A stretch of DNA of 49,752 bases, from the NCBI GenBank assembly GCA_903824935.1, contig CAIJYT010000037.1:1-49752 (forward strand). Direction: 5' to 3'. Under the pieces are notes generated by a model. It was not told the origin of the DNA and ran no database searches. It worked only from the letters and a program-made list of their open reading frames with translations. This stretch comes from an uncultured Bacteroidales bacterium (GTDB taxonomy: Bacteria > Bacteroidota > Bacteroidia > Bacteroidales > FEN-979). Both the position numbers and the translations under genes were made by a program. Shown here piece after piece: positions 9,699 through 48,362 of the stretch (positions are counted from its first letter, which is position 1; the number at the start of each line of letters is the position of its first letter).

Positions 9699-12035
9699 AT
9701 GAAAATATTCAGACTCTTTTTACTATCCTGCATTCTGCATCCTGCATCCCTTTTTGCGCAAAGTCCGCAGATCCCGATCGGCCAGTGGAGAGACGAACTC
9801 CCGTATAACTTTTGCAATTCTGTTGCAGAAGTTGATAACCGGATTTATGCATCGACTCTTTATGCCTTGCTTTACTATGATAAGGAGGATAACAGTGTTA
9901 CCAGGATAACCAAGATACAGGGGCTTTCGGATATCGGCATCAACTGCATCGCTTATAATACAGCTACAAAAACACTGGTGATTGCATACTCCGATGCGAA
10001 TATTGACCTGATCGTGAATAACAGCATCGTCAATATTTCAGATATTTACCGAAAGACCATTCTCGGGAATAAAACCATAAACAGCATATACTGCCTGGGT
10101 AACTTTGCATACCTGCAGTGCGGTTTCGGGATCGTGGTGCTTGATCTGGCAAAACAGGAGATCAAGGAAACATATTATATCGGCAATGGTGGCACCCAGG
10201 TGAATGTCATGTGCCTGATCAAGGATAATAATGATACCCTCTGGGCAGGTACCGAAAAAGGCATCTACAAAGCATGGTATAAGGATCCAAACCTGGCAAA
10301 TTTTGCAGTATGGAAGAAAGACAGGCGAATGGATACAACCCTGATGTATAATACCATAACTTATTTTTCGGGTAAACTGGTGGTCAACAAACAACGGACA
10401 AGCGGCAACGATACGCTGTACACATACGACGGCCACTGGGCATCCTGGAATACCGGAAGCGGCACCCTTCCGATTATGAACCTGAACAGCATGTATAATG
10501 TTCTGCTGGTGTCAAATAAATATTCTGTTGACGTGTATGACCAGAGTTATGCCAAACTAAAATCCATCATCGGTTATCCTGGCGCCGGGGCTTTTCCTCT
10601 GGCCGCCATTTGTGACAGGAACCAGACCATCTGGATAGGTGATTCCTTTTCCGGGCTTGTGCGTAATGCATTGAATTCGGACCAGATAATAACTTATAAT
10701 CTAAGCGGACCGCTTACTGCCAATGCATTCAGCATGAGTTCGCTTGGCAACAACTTATATATTGCACCGGGAGGATATGACCAATCCTTTGTACCGCTTC
10801 CCGACAGACCTGCCCAGGTCTACCATTTTGATGATTCAAACTGGCAAAACATCTCGGGAGCAAATAATACCCCCTTGTACAATTACAACAACATAGTTTC
10901 AGTTACTCCCGATCCTTCCGATCCGAAAAGGATATATGCCGCTACCTGGGGTTATGGTCTTCTTGAATTTTACGATGGCACATTAACAAGGAGATATACT
11001 GAATCAAACAGCACCCTGCATCATCATTCGGCAGGGGATACAGGGCTTATCCGCGTGGGTGGTTCGGCATTTGACGCCCATGGTTACCAGTGGATAGTAT
11101 GTTCGCATACAAACCAATGCCTTTCCCTGAAAAGGGGGAGCCAGTGGACTGGTTTTAATATCGTTGCCAACAATGAGACGGACCTTGGCCAGATCATTGC
11201 CACCCGCTACGACCAGGTGTGGATGCAGATGCGTTACGGCACCCTGAATGCGAATTCAATACTGGTGTTCACCGATAACGGTACACCCGATAATCCCAAC
11301 GATGACCAGGCAAAAAAACTTAACGCATCCAAGGGTTACGGTAACCTGCCGGGGAACACTGTATTTTCATTTGCCGAAGATAAAAACGGTGAAATATGGG
11401 TTGGAACTGAAGCCGGGGTCGGTGTTTTTTTCTCACCCGATGATCTTTTTACAGCCAATCCTTCCGACTGCCAGCGCCCTCTTGTCCAGCAGGGACAATA
11501 CACCCAGTACCTTCTTGAAAGCGAGCAGGTGAATGCTATTGCCGTGGACGGGGCCAACCGCAAATGGATGGGGACCGACAGGGGAGGCGCTTACCTTTTC
11601 TCAGCCGATGGCACCAAACAGATCTACCATTTTACTACCGAAAACTGTCCCCTGCTTTCCAACAGGGTGACTTCCATAGCTATAAACTCTGTCACCGGCG
11701 AAGTGTACTTCGGCACCGACAAAGGTGTCATCTCATTTAAAGGCACCGCCACTGAAGGCAGCGATTCATTCGGTAATGTCTATGCCTATCCCAACCCGGT
11801 ACGTGAGGGTTACCAGGGATATATTGCTGTGACAGGTCTTATCAGCAATGCCCAGATCCGTATCACTGATATCAGCGGAAGGCTGGTTTTTACAGGCAAG
11901 GCGGAAGGCGGACAGGCAGTTTGGAATGGCAGTACCCTGGAAGGGAAAAAGGTTCGTACCGGCGTATACCTGGTATTTGCTTCCAATGAAAGCGGAAGTG
12001 AGAAAGTTGTAACCAAAATCCTCGTAATCAACTGA
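9699..12035 (+). CDS. porZ: PorZ-like type IX secretion system protein (two-propeller plus C-terminal domain)
   Basis: Secreted protein of 778 residues with signal peptide MKIFRLFLLSCILHPASLFA. The mature start IPIGQWRDELPYN and the segment YYDKEDNSVTRITKIQGLSD match the PorZ family as I remember it. PorZ works with PorU in the cell-surface attachment complex and delivers A-LPS to the sortase. Beta-propeller-type repeats (LWAGTEKGIYKAW, IWVGTEAGVGVFF, KWMGTDRGGAYLF, VYFGTDKGVISF) run to about residue 680. A T9SS-type C-terminal domain follows (VYAYPNPVREGYQGYI to KILVIN). Its stop overlaps the recO start by one base. The alternative is a generic two-component-propeller T9SS cargo protein, but length and N-terminus favour PorZ. 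Confidence 0.75.
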   Translation: MKIFRLFLLSCILHPASLFAQSPQIPIGQWRDELPYNFCNSVAEVDNRIYASTLYALLYYDKEDNSVTRITKIQGLSDIGINCIAYNTATKTLVIAYSDANIDLIVNNSIVNISDIYRKTILGNKTINSIYCLGNFAYLQCGFGIVVLDLAKQEIKETYYIGNGGTQVNVMCLIKDNNDTLWAGTEKGIYKAWYKDPNLANFAVWKKDRRMDTTLMYNTITYFSGKLVVNKQRTSGNDTLYTYDGHWASWNTGSGTLPIMNLNSMYNVLLVSNKYSVDVYDQSYAKLKSIIGYPGAGAFPLAAICDRNQTIWIGDSFSGLVRNALNSDQIITYNLSGPLTANAFSMSSLGNNLYIAPGGYDQSFVPLPDRPAQVYHFDDSNWQNISGANNTPLYNYNNIVSVTPDPSDPKRIYAATWGYGLLEFYDGTLTRRYTESNSTLHHHSAGDTGLIRVGGSAFDAHGYQWIVCSHTNQCLSLKRGSQWTGFNIVANNETDLGQIIATRYDQVWMQMRYGTLNANSILVFTDNGTPDNPNDDQAKKLNASKGYGNLPGNTVFSFAEDKNGEIWVGTEAGVGVFFSPDDLFTANPSDCQRPLVQQGQYTQYLLESEQVNAIAVDGANRKWMGTDRGGAYLFSADGTKQIYHFTTENCPLLSNRVTSIAINSVTGEVYFGTDKGVISFKGTATEGSDSFGNVYAYPNPVREGYQGYIAVTGLISNAQIRITDISGRLVFTGKAEGGQAVWNGSTLEGKKVRTGVYLVFASNESGSEKVVTKILVIN

Positions 12036-12760
12036 TGCTTGTAAACACAAAAGGCATCGTTCTTCACTCTTTAAAATACTCAGAGACCAGTATCATCGTC
12101 CGCATTTATACCGAAGCTGCGGGCCTTCAATCTTACCTGTTCAAAGGGGTCCGCAGTCCGAAGTCAAAAACAAAAGCAGGCCTGTTCCAGTCCCTGACAT
12201 TACTTGAAGTGGTGGCATATATCAAAGAAAATGCAGGACTGCATATTGCCAGGGATGTGAGGTTGTTCCAGCCATATATGAGCATCCCTTTCGATATCAG
12301 GAAAAGTTCCATCGCCCTTTACATGAATGAACTTCTGTATAAGGCTATACGTGAAGAAGAATCAAATACCGAACTTTTCAATTTTATGTGGAAGTCATGT
12401 CTTTTGCTTGATTCCACTGAGGATAACCTGAACTGCTTCCCCCTGGTTTTTACTGCCGAGCTCACAGATTTCCTCGGGATAAGGCCCCAGTCGGGATACA
12501 CGGAAAACAAACCGGTCTTTAACCTCAGGGAAAGCCAGTTCCAGTCTTTAATCCCTGAAAAAGACTCTTATATTATGCCAGAATACGGCAGCATGTTCCA
12601 GTCTCTTATTACCACCCCCCTGGAAAAGCAGTCGGCGTTGCATTTCAAACCTGCGATCAGGAGATCTTTTATGGATTCCCTTCTCATCTATTACCACATC
12701 CATCTCCCCGGATTCAAACCCATGAACTCTCATCACATCCTCCATTCTGTGCTGTCGTAG
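12035..12760 (+). CDS. recO: DNA repair protein RecO
   Basis: Recombination mediator that loads RecA with RecF and RecR in gap repair. The N-terminal OB-fold begins TKGIVLHSLKYSETSIIVRIYTE and includes LFKGVRSPKSK. The 241-residue product is normal for Bacteroidota RecO, and the family's C-terminal zinc-finger cysteines are missing here. The ATG overlaps the preceding stop (TGATG), indicating translational coupling to the PorZ-like gene. Confidence 0.93.
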   Translation: MLVNTKGIVLHSLKYSETSIIVRIYTEAAGLQSYLFKGVRSPKSKTKAGLFQSLTLLEVVAYIKENAGLHIARDVRLFQPYMSIPFDIRKSSIALYMNELLYKAIREEESNTELFNFMWKSCLLLDSTEDNLNCFPLVFTAELTDFLGIRPQSGYTENKPVFNLRESQFQSLIPEKDSYIMPEYGSMFQSLITTPLEKQSALHFKPAIRRSFMDSLLIYYHIHLPGFKPMNSHHILHSVLS

Positions 12761-12806
12761 AAGCCCTCTGCAACCGCCTTCCTGACTGAGGGAGAAATCC
12801 TGGTGT

Positions 12807-12935
12807 GATTTACGATTGATGGATTTACGATTCACGATTGAACTTACGGATTTACGAGTTACGAGTTTAATTTTTTATCCGTCGATCGTCAATCTTATAT
12901 TCATTCGTAAATCTAAGATCGTCCAATCGTAAATC
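12807..12935. repeat. Mirrored heptamer element, copy B
   Basis: A 129-bp imperfect palindrome between recO and lysS. Left blocks are GATTTAC, GATTGATG, GATTTAC, GATTCAC, a 13-mer, GATTTAC and GAGTTAC. Right blocks are GTCGATC, GTCAATC, a 12-mer, GTAAATC, TAAGATC, GTCCAATC and GTAAATC. The block order is as in copies A and C. It ends 2 bp before the lysS -7 box. Confidence 0.85.
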
Positions 12936-12961: not shown

Positions 12962-14482
12962 ATGCAAGTTACTCTTACCGAGCAGGAACAAATCAGGCGT
13001 GATTCATTAAATGAACTTTTCAGGCTCGGGATCAATCCATACCCGCCCGAAACATTCCCGGTCAATGTGACCGCAGCCGAAATCAGGCAAAATTATCCTG
13101 CCGACAATACCATGTACCAGGAGGTGAGTATCGCAGGCCGTATCATGACCCGGAGGATCATGGGCGCCGCCTCTTTCTCGGAACTCCAGGATTCTACGGG
13201 ACGCATCCAGATGTATATAAAACGCGATGAGATCTGCACTGGTGAAGACAAGACCCTTTACAACACGGTATTTAAGAAGCTTCTCGACATAGGCGATATC
13301 ATCGGTGTTACAGGGTATGTATTCGTCACCCAGATGGGAGAGATCTCCATCCATGTGAGAAGCCTGAAACTTCTTTCCAAATCCCTTAGGGTTCTGCCCA
13401 TCGTCAAGGAAAAGGACGGGGAATTGTTTGATGCTTTTACCGATCCCGAGCAAAGATACCGGCAGCGTTATGTAGACATGATCGTCAATCCCCAGGTGAG
13501 GGATGTGTTTGTCAAACGGGCACAGCTGGTGAATTCCATGCGTCAGTTCCTGAATGCAAAATCATACCTGGAAGTTGAAACACCTGTCCTTCAGCCACTT
13601 TACGGCGGCGCTGCTGCCCGGCCGTTCAAGACCCATCACAACTCCCTCGACATGACCCTGTACCTTCGTATTGCCAACGAACTTTACCTCAAAAGGCTTA
13701 TCGTTGGCGGATTTGACGGGGTCTATGAATTCTCCAAGGACTTCCGCAACGAAGGGATGGACCGTTTCCATAACCCTGAGTTTACCCAGATGGAGCTCTA
13801 TGTAGCTTATAAGGATTATGATTGGATGATGGACCTCGTGGAGGAAATGGTGGAAAAGATCGCTCTTGACCTGCATGGGAAAACAGAGATCCCGGTTGGT
13901 GAAAAGATCATAGATTTCAAACGGCCCTGGAAACGCTTCACTATGTTTGAAGTGATAAAACATTATACCGGAATCGATATCGACGGCAAATCGGAAGACG
14001 AGCTGATCGCCATTGCGAAACAGCTTGATGTGCCTGTCGACAAGACCATGGCCAAAGGAAAGATCATTGACCAGATCTTCGGTGAGAAATGCGAGCCCAA
14101 CCTGGTCCAGCCGACCTTTATCACCGACTATCCCATTGAAATGTCGCCCCTGGCAAAGAAACACCGCAGCAAAGACGGGCTTGTTGAACGTTTCGAAGCA
14201 ATCTGCAACGGCAAGGAGCTTTGTAATGCATTCTCAGAACTCAACGATCCCATCGATCAGAGGAAACGCTTCGAAGACCAGCTGGAACTTGGAAAACGCG
14301 GAGACGACGAATCTATGGTACTGGATGAGGATTTCCTCCGTTCCCTTGAATTCGCCATGCCTCCTACTTCAGGTCTGGGTATAGGGATTGACCGTCTCAC
14401 GATGATCATGACCAACCAGGCATCCATACAGGATGTGCTTTTCTTCCCACAGATGAGGCAGGAAAAAAAGATCAGCGAATAA
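12962..14482 (+). CDS. lysS: Lysine--tRNA ligase, class II
   Basis: Charges tRNA-Lys. It has an N-terminal OB anticodon-binding domain (residues about 50-170), class II motif 1 ([18 protein letters not shown]), motif 2 ([18 protein letters not shown]) and motif 3 ([11 protein letters not shown]). Length is 506 residues, standard. It is transcribed from its own -7 box just after a repeat element. Its last 11 bases overlap the end of the convergent deiminase gene. Confidence 0.97.
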
Positions 14483-23793: not shown

Positions 23794-23827
23794 TTCGCTA
23801 TTTCGCTACTTCGCTACTTCGCTACTT
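23794..23827 (+). repeat. 8-bp tandem repeat, left copy of a 28-bp inverted repeat
   Basis: Four TTCGCTAC-like octamers lie in the 64-bp gap between the two ABC ATPase genes. Bases 23800-23827 are the perfect reverse complement of 28686-28713. Confidence 0.9.
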
Positions 23828-28678: not shown

Positions 28679-28682
28679 AATA

Positions 28683-28714
28683 GTGAAGTAGCGAAGTAGC
28701 GAAGTAGCGAAATG
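28683..28714 (+). repeat. 8-bp tandem repeat, right copy of a 28-bp inverted repeat
   Basis: Octamers GTGAAGTA, GCGAAGTA, GCGAAGTA and GCGAAATG follow the MltF-like gene. Bases 28686-28713 are the perfect reverse complement of 23800-23827. Confidence 0.9.
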
Positions 28715-28745: not shown

Positions 28746-28830
28746 ATTCGTTATTCGAGTATTCGAGTATTCGAGTATTCAAAGACTCTTCAACATTCAT
28801 AATTCAATGTTCACTATTCGATATTCAAAT
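28746..28830. repeat. ATTC-type 8-bp and 7-bp tandem words
   Basis: ATTCGAGT occurs three times in tandem at 28753-28776, flanked by ATTCGTT and ATTCAAAG. A second run of 7-mers (ATTCATA, ATTCAAT, GTTCACT, ATTCGAT, ATTCAAAT) spans 28795-28830 and includes the stop codon and last codons of the epimerase gene. Confidence 0.8.
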
Positions 28831-46858: not shown

Positions 46859-46879
46859 GTACGTGGTACATGGTACATC
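46859..46879. repeat. GTACATG heptamer repeat
   Basis: GTACGTG, GTACATG and GTACATC in tandem, ending 1 bp before the cysS stop codon. Confidence 0.7.
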
Positions 46880-46880
46880 A

Positions 46881-48362
46881 TTATTTCCCCAGCTCCCAGG
46901 TACTTCCATCCTTACCGTCCTTGACAGTGATCTCAAGTTTCTGCAGCGCATCCCTGATCTGGTCGGAAGTTCCCCAATCCTTTTTCTCCCTCGAGCTTTG
47001 CCTTATGTTTAACACCAGCTCCATCAGGCCTTTAAGATAGTCTGAATTGTCGCCCGAAAGCTCGCTTTTCAAACCCAGTATATCAAACACAAAGGTGTTG
47101 AATGTTTTTTTCAGAAGTTCAAGATCTTCAGCCGAAATGCTTTCTTTCTTATCATTCACCGAATTGATGATCCTGACCCCTTCGAACAGGTTGGCGATAA
47201 CGATGGGGCTGTTAAAGTCATCGTTCATGGCCTCATAGCAGGCATCCCGAAGTGCTGTGATCCGTGAATCGTGATCCGTGATCCGTGAATCGTGAACAGT
47301 GAGATGGTCAAGGATCCCGATAGCGGCAAACAGCCGTTTCAGCCCCTTTTCTGCTGCCTGTAATGCCTCGTTTGAAAAATCAAGGGTGCTGCGGTAATGA
47401 GCCTGGAGAATGAAAAACCTTATCGTCATCGGGCTGTAAGCCTGTATCAGGGAGGCATGAGACCCGCTGAAGAACTCATCCAAAGTAATAAAATTACCCA
47501 GTGATTTCCCCATTTTCTGGCCGTTGATAGTGACCATATTGTTATGCATCCAGTACTTCACCGATTCATGCCCCAGGGCACTCTGGTTCTGGGCTATCTC
47601 CGATTCATGATGAGGAAATAAAAGATCCATCCCTCCCCCGTGAATATCGAAAAACTCACCCAGGTACCTTGTCCCCATGGCAGAACATTCAAGATGCCAG
47701 CCGGGAAAACCGTCACTCCATGGCGAAGGCCACCTCATGATATGTTCGGGCTGGGCTTTCTTCCATAATGCAAAATCGGCAGGGTTTCGTTTTTCATCCT
47801 GCCCTTCCAACTCGCGGGTATTTGCAAGTAGATCGTCAAGCACCCTGCCTGAAAGCTTTCCGTATTGAAAGGTTTTACTGTACTTCTCTATGTCAAAATA
47901 AACCGACCCGTTCACTTCATACCCATATCCCGCATCCAGTATCTTTTTTACAAATTCGATCTGCTCTATCATATGCCCCGAAGCCCGCGGTTCAATACTT
48001 GGCCGTTTCACATTCAGAGCATCCATGAAGATAAAATACCTGTCGGCATAATACTGGGCAACTTCCATTGGCTCAAGCTGTTCAAGCCTTGCTTTCTTTG
48101 CGATCTTGTCCTCACCCTCGTCAAGGTCATGCTCAAGGTGGCCTACATCGGTGATGTTCCTTACATACCTCACTTTATAACCGAGGTGCTTCAAATAACG
48201 GAATACCAGGTCGAAGCAAATCGCGGGACGGGCATGCCCGAGGTGGGGATCTCCGTAGACCGTTGGCCCGCAAACGTACATACCGACAAAGGGTGGATTG
48301 ATGGGTTCGAATAACTCCCTGGTCCTTGATAAGGTATTGAAAAGAAATAAGCTGGATTCCAT
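46881..48362 (-). CDS. cysS: Cysteine--tRNA ligase
   Basis: Class I synthetase charging tRNA-Cys, 493 residues. The N-terminal zinc cysteine is in [10 protein letters not shown], the HIGH-type motif is HLGH, and the KMSKS-type motif is KMGKS. The anticodon-binding helical bundle follows. Residues 357-369 read [13 protein letters not shown], a two-fold repeat encoded by 7-bp tandem DNA units, placed between the catalytic core and the conserved [12 protein letters not shown]. This looks like an in-frame insertion of intergenic-type repeat DNA. The essential motifs are intact, so the enzyme is probably active. It has its own -7 box. Confidence 0.95.
47260..47301. repeat. 7-bp tandem repeat inside cysS
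   Basis: Six consecutive 7-mers on the plus strand: ATCCGTG, AATCGTG, ATCCGTG, ATCCGTG, AATCGTG and AACAGTG. On the coding strand they read CACGGAT/CACGATT, related to the GATTCAC words of the intergenic palindromic elements. Confidence 0.9.

Follow-up and report, generated by a model that had tools for sequence, protein, structure and literature searches.

An in-frame array of a lineage-specific heptanucleotide repeat in the inter-domain linker of a Bacteroidales cysteine--tRNA ligase

A heptamer array in the CysRS inter-domain linker

The window analysed here is a stretch of 49,752 nucleotides from an uncultured Bacteroidales bacterium, and it contains the gene cysS for cysteine--tRNA ligase (CysRS; Table 1). 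We refer to the source draft genome of the window (3.63 Mb, 95%-complete) as G000 and to the compared genomes by other G numbers; this cysS was the only CysRS gene matched in G000. A first-pass annotation, made from the sequence alone, had placed a heptamer array inside the gene, and both the sequence and TRF confirmed it with a start one base away from the one proposed. On the plus strand the array reads GTGATCC, GTGAATC, GTGATCC, GTGATCC, GTGAATC, GTGAACA and GTGA. The six units counted at first pass are thus five perfect units and an imperfect one, to which a partial unit has to be added. The cysS frame is intact across the array, which is translated from the complementary strand into 14 residues. 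TRF detects periods of 7, 14 and 21 bp at this position, with the 21-bp period (2.2 copies, 92% match) scoring highest. Residues 357-369 constitute the repeat peptide, which is followed by ALRDA and, from residue 375, by CYEAMNDD. When the codons of the linker were shuffled, none of 2000 shuffles matched its self-match at lag 7 (p ~0.0005).

Table 1 Features of the cysS locus and related heptamer arrays in the window.
Feature	Position	Strand	Basis
cysS, cysteine--tRNA ligase, 493 aa	46881..48362	-	Open ORF; TIGR00435 458 bits, cut-off 340
Heptamer array, (GTGANNC)5 + GTGAACA + GTGA	47257..47302	+	Sequence, TRF; cysS reads it antisense, residues 356-369
Variable inter-domain CysRS linker, 23 codons, residues 352-374	47241..47309	-	Pfam limits, AlphaFold2, family alignment
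Short array of GTACATG heptamers, another family, in the intergenic region immediately 3' of cysS	46859..46878	.	TRF, sequence
Intergenic array of the cysS heptamer family, degenerate (plus-strand units GATTTAC/GATTCAC)	12807..12869	-	TRF, 7-bp period with 8.9 copies at 66% matches; pattern search C37:12822-12835

Outside the linker, cysS is under strong purifying selection, with dN/dS values of 0.02-0.045 against four congeners at a dS near saturation. Together with a TIGR00435 score above the cut-off, these values rule out a pseudogene, and judging from its sequence the array-bearing CysRS is apparently a functional enzyme.

The first-pass annotation had proposed to map the repeat on a CysRS structure, and this mapping places it in the linker between two domains. 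Pfam assigns the catalytic domain to residues 18-338 and the DALR_2 domain to residues 376-431, and the array lies between them. An AlphaFold2 model (mean pLDDT 87) predicts helices at residues 331-351 and 364-380, which are connected by a loop (residues 352-363) whose pLDDT falls below 50 at residues 360-362. In this model the array spans the inter-helix loop and the start of helix 364-380. The closest solved relative, as judged from the best Foldseek match, is the CysRS of Elizabethkingia (6ujd), and alignment with it yields a 4-residue gap at the array. Elsewhere in the window, TRF also found 8-bp tandem arrays (TTCGCTAC / TAGCGAAG / TATTCGAG) at 23794-23827, 28681-28711 and 28752-28780.

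A genome-wide heptamer family and its copies inside genes

The array belongs to a repeat family that is spread over the whole genome. Three exact GTGANNC units in a row occur in 192 windows of G000 and the reversed control pattern in none, while a two-unit pattern with up to 2 mismatches gave 319 matches, compared to 1 for its reversal. We sampled 40 stretches around arrays among the matches listed (the first 100 of the 192 windows, plus places from the two-unit search) and added L008 and L009, giving 42 stretches; an array was counted if it had at least three perfect units and was considered in-ORF if it lay within an ORF of at least 120 aa. Such ORFs make up 87.8% of the sampled bases, yet most arrays fall outside them: 27 of the 50 arrays are intergenic, 13 run across an ORF end and 10 lie inside. 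Array lengths vary across the sample. The degenerate intergenic array within the window lies between ORFs 12035-12760 and 12962-14482, and its edge is overlapped by a mechanical 95-aa ORF (12548-12835, minus strand). The units of the cysS array (GTGATCC, GTGAATC, GTGAACA and their complements) contain no GGG run on either strand, whereas some other units of the family, e.g. GTGACCC, carry one on the complement.

The cysS units had initially been likened to intergenic palindromic elements. The intergenic part of this description holds, as seen from the array at 12807-12869 and the 192 windows, but the palindromic part applies to a fraction only: 5 inverted neighbour pairs were found among the 50 arrays, most arrays have no inverted partner within 60 b, and the cysS copy itself is a one-armed direct array.

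In 9 of the 13 arrays at ORF ends (L171 twice, L177, L178, L180, L185, L186, L192 and L008), the ORF terminates at the TGA within the array's first GTGA unit; two others (L165, L174) have the stop in the third unit and the remaining two overlap ORF starts. Gene ends finishing in GTGA may be sites at which arrays are seeded.

Nine of the ten in-ORF arrays reside in cysS, hisS, nadE, purL (two arrays), mutS and in uvrA-, dnaE- and gltD-like genes. Heptamers of the same family are thus found in frame in seven housekeeping-type genes besides cysS, and the idea that the repeat process reaches essential genes is borne out more broadly than it had been put. The gene names derive from Pfam and NCBIfam; the matches for hisS, nadE, purL and mutS exceed the curated cut-off, whereas the dnaE-like, uvrA-like and glutamate-synthase-small-subunit-like (gltD-like) calls stay below it, and the ends of the sampled stretches truncate the dnaE- and uvrA-like ORFs. 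Two in-ORF cases are weaker, one of the purL arrays being located at a contig edge and the array in L170 four codons from the inferred start. In nadE, the array (residues 259-273) lies between the CN_hydrolase (2-248) and NAD_synthase (280-525) domains, and the mid-gene array of purL (497-506) between AIRS_C (308-459) and a PurM_N-like domain (524-678). The mutS array follows domain V, and the gltD-like array overlaps the end of a weak DAO match (187-341, below cut-off).

In the UvrA-like protein (L179 780-2700, G000 C137), the best-matching stretch begins at residue 145, corresponding to model position 264 (NF001503), and the array (126-144) sits at the gap; this protein is perhaps a UvrA paralogue without a domain. 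In L161, L176 and L183, genes with a GATTCAC-type array also encode second heptamer-style peptides (RQSAVSRLQTADYRLPVADC, SRQSAVGSQQSAV, NREPRTVNREPRTANS). These lie near the array in L176 and L183, so it seems that more than one heptamer family uses a given landing site.

All ten in-ORF arrays are oriented with GTGA antisense to the gene. This orientation is explained by the units themselves, as GTGANNC arrays contain a TGA in every frame while their translated complements are stop-free; about 69% of heptamers are free of stops on a given strand. As 7 shares no factor with 3, an array of heptamers moreover encodes one and the same heptapeptide, merely rotated, in all three frames, as observed upon translation of nine units. 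The phase in which an array enters a gene is therefore irrelevant, and only the net length modulo 3 counts. The first-pass annotation had pointed out that three units, or 21 nt, keep the frame. This fits the single HDSRIT copy in the cysS linker of G005 compared to two copies 21 nt apart in G000, but a multiple of three matters for the net length only.

Linker repeats and seven-base periodicity across the family

Our comparison of CysRS linkers covered 42 of 43 family genomes, with G018 left out since its cysS is in two fragments, and 94 distinct non-family cysS sequences, from which L075-L082 had been removed since each of these eight has the same cysS sequence as a family locus. Family membership of L083-L154 was inferred. 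The linker of non-family Bacteroidales is uniform, with 19 aa in 78 of the 94 sequences, 19-24 aa in 93 and 40 aa in one, whereas that of the family ranges from 19 to 56 aa (n = 42) and carries repeats in many, although not all, genomes. With 23 aa, the G000 linker exceeds the 19-aa norm by four residues, and that of G002 has 24 aa, which suggests that linker sequence was mostly replaced rather than inserted. The repeat is thus not the clean insertion of 13 residues originally proposed. Among 146 CysRS loci, only three contain HDSRIT, each from the genus of G000, and the distant CysRS proteins in this set lack the repeat residues. HDSRIT as a conserved ancestral motif is ruled out by this distribution.

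The repeats found at this site differ between lineages. The linker of G003 consists of GGATGCR heptamers, while G004-G007 have GGGATCC-, GGATGC- or GGATCAC-type units, G008 has GGGTCCC, G015 has CAGTCAG and CATCCAG, G024 and G029 have AAGGTTC, and several genomes of genus g5 have TTGGCAG; 8-mers are present in G011 and G021. A palindrome, CCCTCACCCC...GGGAGAGGGG, occupies the cysS linker of 7 family genomes (six or seven of them from genus g3). Allowing up to 3 mismatches, CCCTCACCCC palindromes were found in 12 of the 43 family genomes at 1-5 copies each, and 7 of the 12 have one in cysS. As the palindrome is this rare within a genome, its copy in the linker may be inherited and not newly landed. 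The linker of G029 (L044) also contains CHCEERGDES, encoded by TGTCATTGCGAGGAACGCGGTGACGA, a repeat that we take to be widespread in other bacteria.

We scored lag autocorrelation against codon shuffles and observed peaks at lags 7, 14 and 21 in the family cysS linkers (z 16, 9 and 8), where the z-scores treat linkers as independent though they are related. The z-score at lag 7 was 0.3 for non-family cysS linkers and -2.3 for 102 control stretches taken from these genes. Period 7 reached p<0.01 in 17 of the 42 family linkers (25 were not significant), compared to 1 of 94 non-family linkers and 2 of 102 control stretches. Removal of G000 left the lag-7 z of cysS at 15.6 and removal of its genus at 9.9, and with one genome per genus it was 3.7. 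We also analysed hisS and nadE, which were chosen since G000 has arrays there, using 30 family loci for each gene out of the 39 (hisS) and 43 (nadE) family genomes that gave a match. At p<0.01, 19 or 20 of 30 family loci were periodic in hisS (0 of 20 in the outgroup) and 13 of 30 in nadE (1 of 10 in the outgroup; only 10 of 20 outgroup genomes entered, other matches being partial or distant). A second peak at lag 8 in nadE (z 10) indicates that seven is the main, not the sole, period, and in the hisS outgroup lag 14 is slightly raised (z 3.5). The pronounced seven-base periodicity is thus almost entirely restricted to the family.

Three GTGANNC units in a row were present in 30 of the 43 family genomes, with the largest load in G000, and in 13 of 291 non-family genomes of the order (295 sampled, four of them family; the 14 that match are G000 and these 13). 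The reversed control pattern is non-empty in some other genomes and presumably represents another heptamer family there. GGATGC windows number 391 in G003, where a GGATGC array makes up the cysS linker, 54 in G015, whose CATCCAG array is the complement, and 15 in G000. However, G020 has 367 GGATGC windows and a repeat-free cysS linker, G035 has 163 GTGANNC windows and a palindrome-type linker, and the non-family genomes G058 and G060 have 26 and 38 GTGANNC windows and ordinary linkers. Thus, genome load is not sufficient for invasion of the linker.

Origin and significance of the array

Taken together, we consider it probable that the array in cysS represents one copy, tolerated within coding sequence, of a heptanucleotide repeat that is lineage-specific and spread over the genome. 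In this Bacteroidales family, arrays of heptamers would amplify chiefly between genes, with unit numbers changing by slippage or unequal recombination within arrays and new sites being seeded occasionally, by short matches or by recombination with other arrays. Survival inside a gene would require a tolerant linker, a stop-free coding strand and a net length change divisible by three. The cysS array takes up most of the catalytic-DALR linker and includes a tandem duplication of 21 nt (three units). That selection filters the arrays is evident from their location and orientation; it would remove those that cause stops, frameshifts or structural damage. The repeat peptide itself probably has no selected function.

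The strongest competing explanation concerns the history of the G000 linker. A FastTree phylogeny built on the rest of the gene (L042-L046 left out) groups G000 with G002 (support 1.00), and the 24-aa linker of G002 is devoid of heptamers, whereas a 10-residue stretch of the G000 linker matches G005 and G006. Given this discordance with its sister, the G000 linker may have travelled as one block, through recombination or lineage sorting, and the HDSRIT linker either predates the split of G000 and G002 and was lost in G002, or was recombined, or both. A single origin of the HDSRIT linker in the genus, from which it reached G000 through lineage sorting or homologous recombination without any invasion of that genome's own cysS, is nevertheless unlikely, though it deserves serious consideration. 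It leaves unexplained the different heptamers in the linkers of G003, G008, G015 and genus g5 as well as the large number of G000-type repeats across the genome; G000 has the largest load of the family and, judged by eye, the longest GATTCAC/GGATCAC run of the genus. We regard as improbable a mobile element, i.e. a discrete MITE- or RPE-like palindrome with heptamers that inserts into genes and intergenic sites and of which the G000 cysS keeps one arm. The five inverted neighbour pairs, the CCCTCACCCC...GGGAGAGGGG palindrome in seven family linkers and the CHCEERGDES-coding repeat of G029 would agree with such an element, but array length is variable, several heptamer families have only their period in common and inverted partners are mostly lacking.

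Selection at the protein level could likewise have duplicated a useful HDSRIT heptapeptide as a 21-nt unit, the match to intergenic repeats being incidental. The top score of the 21-bp period and the single HDSRIT of G005 compared to two in G000 are in line with this idea. It is, however, largely refuted by the signals at lags 7 and 14 that accompany lag 21 in cysS, hisS and nadE and argue against a codon-level process, which would favour multiples of three; the same heptamers moreover occur between genes, and the peptides that other species show at the linker site are unrelated, so that we judge this explanation very improbable. Hardly credible is an assembly artefact in which reads of an intergenic repeat were mis-joined into cysS. 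Some draft contigs do end in such arrays (e.g. C56, C61 and C234), but the contig, 49.8 kb long, extends to both sides of the cysS array, the reading frame is preserved, and relatives assembled separately carry in-frame repeats at this position too.

Rickettsia palindromic elements (RPEs) are palindromic, as their name says. According to the accessible part of the source, they lie in frame in Rickettsia genes (PMC10969869), and they resemble our arrays in being repetitive DNA carried in frame by unrelated metabolic genes whose protein function is apparently kept. The G000 arrays are likewise found in frame in unrelated protein-coding genes. RPEs are described there as discrete, ~150 bp long and falling into defined families, whereas here 7-bp units form variable arrays whose unit sequence is lineage-specific. 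The G000 arrays are not discrete RPE-like palindromes of conserved sequence and length, as the cysS copy is one-armed, the ten in-ORF arrays share one orientation and lengths vary. Closer in unit size are the GGGNATC heptameric repeats of Xanthomonas and Nostoc, which the accessible text reports to be G-rich and G-quadruplex-forming with a preference for four units, and 89-93% intergenic in Xanthomonas (PMC4692102). They share with our arrays the genome-wide 7-bp tandem organisation, a mostly intergenic location with an intragenic minority (11% and 7% in two Xanthomonas) and some inverted pairs; in G000, 27 of 50 arrays are intergenic and 13 lie at ORF ends. The difference is that the arrays are not of the G-tract type, the cysS units lacking the G-tract consensus for G-quadruplexes, and that the same essential-enzyme linkers bear differing heptamers across the family. 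TAACTGA direct repeats, known from Beggiatoaceae, Cyanobacteria and a small number of Bacteroidetes (PMC4679880), are also heptameric and of patchy range, but their heptamer is fixed and, in the genome on which that study centres, mostly immediately precedes start codons, and the accessible part of that paper describes no recurring in-frame linker sites like those of our family. Our literature search by title and abstract opening, in which few subscription journals were covered, recognised no description of in-frame heptamer arrays in conserved Bacteroidetes enzyme linkers. In-frame selfish repeats in Rickettsia and intergenic heptamers are already known; it is the combination of both that looks new.

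A more general reading, which we put forward tentatively and rate somewhat below an even chance, is that a sequence-agnostic heptamer amplification is active in the family and rewrites the linkers of essential enzymes with the kinds of intergenic repeat that each lineage happens to have. It could act as a frame-neutral linker generator because, with 7 coprime to 3, a stop-free array yields one heptapeptide in any frame. The arrays themselves illustrate how non-coding repeat DNA repeatedly turns into protein sequence, in essential enzymes and outside Rickettsia, a conversion for which 7-bp units seem well suited. The cysS, hisS and nadE linkers provide natural replicates over a family of 43 species, in which rates, seeding and tolerance are measurable. 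Linker peptides such as GSRITDH, GSRFKVQ and QLAVGS may thus be read-through of DNA repeats and not functional motifs.
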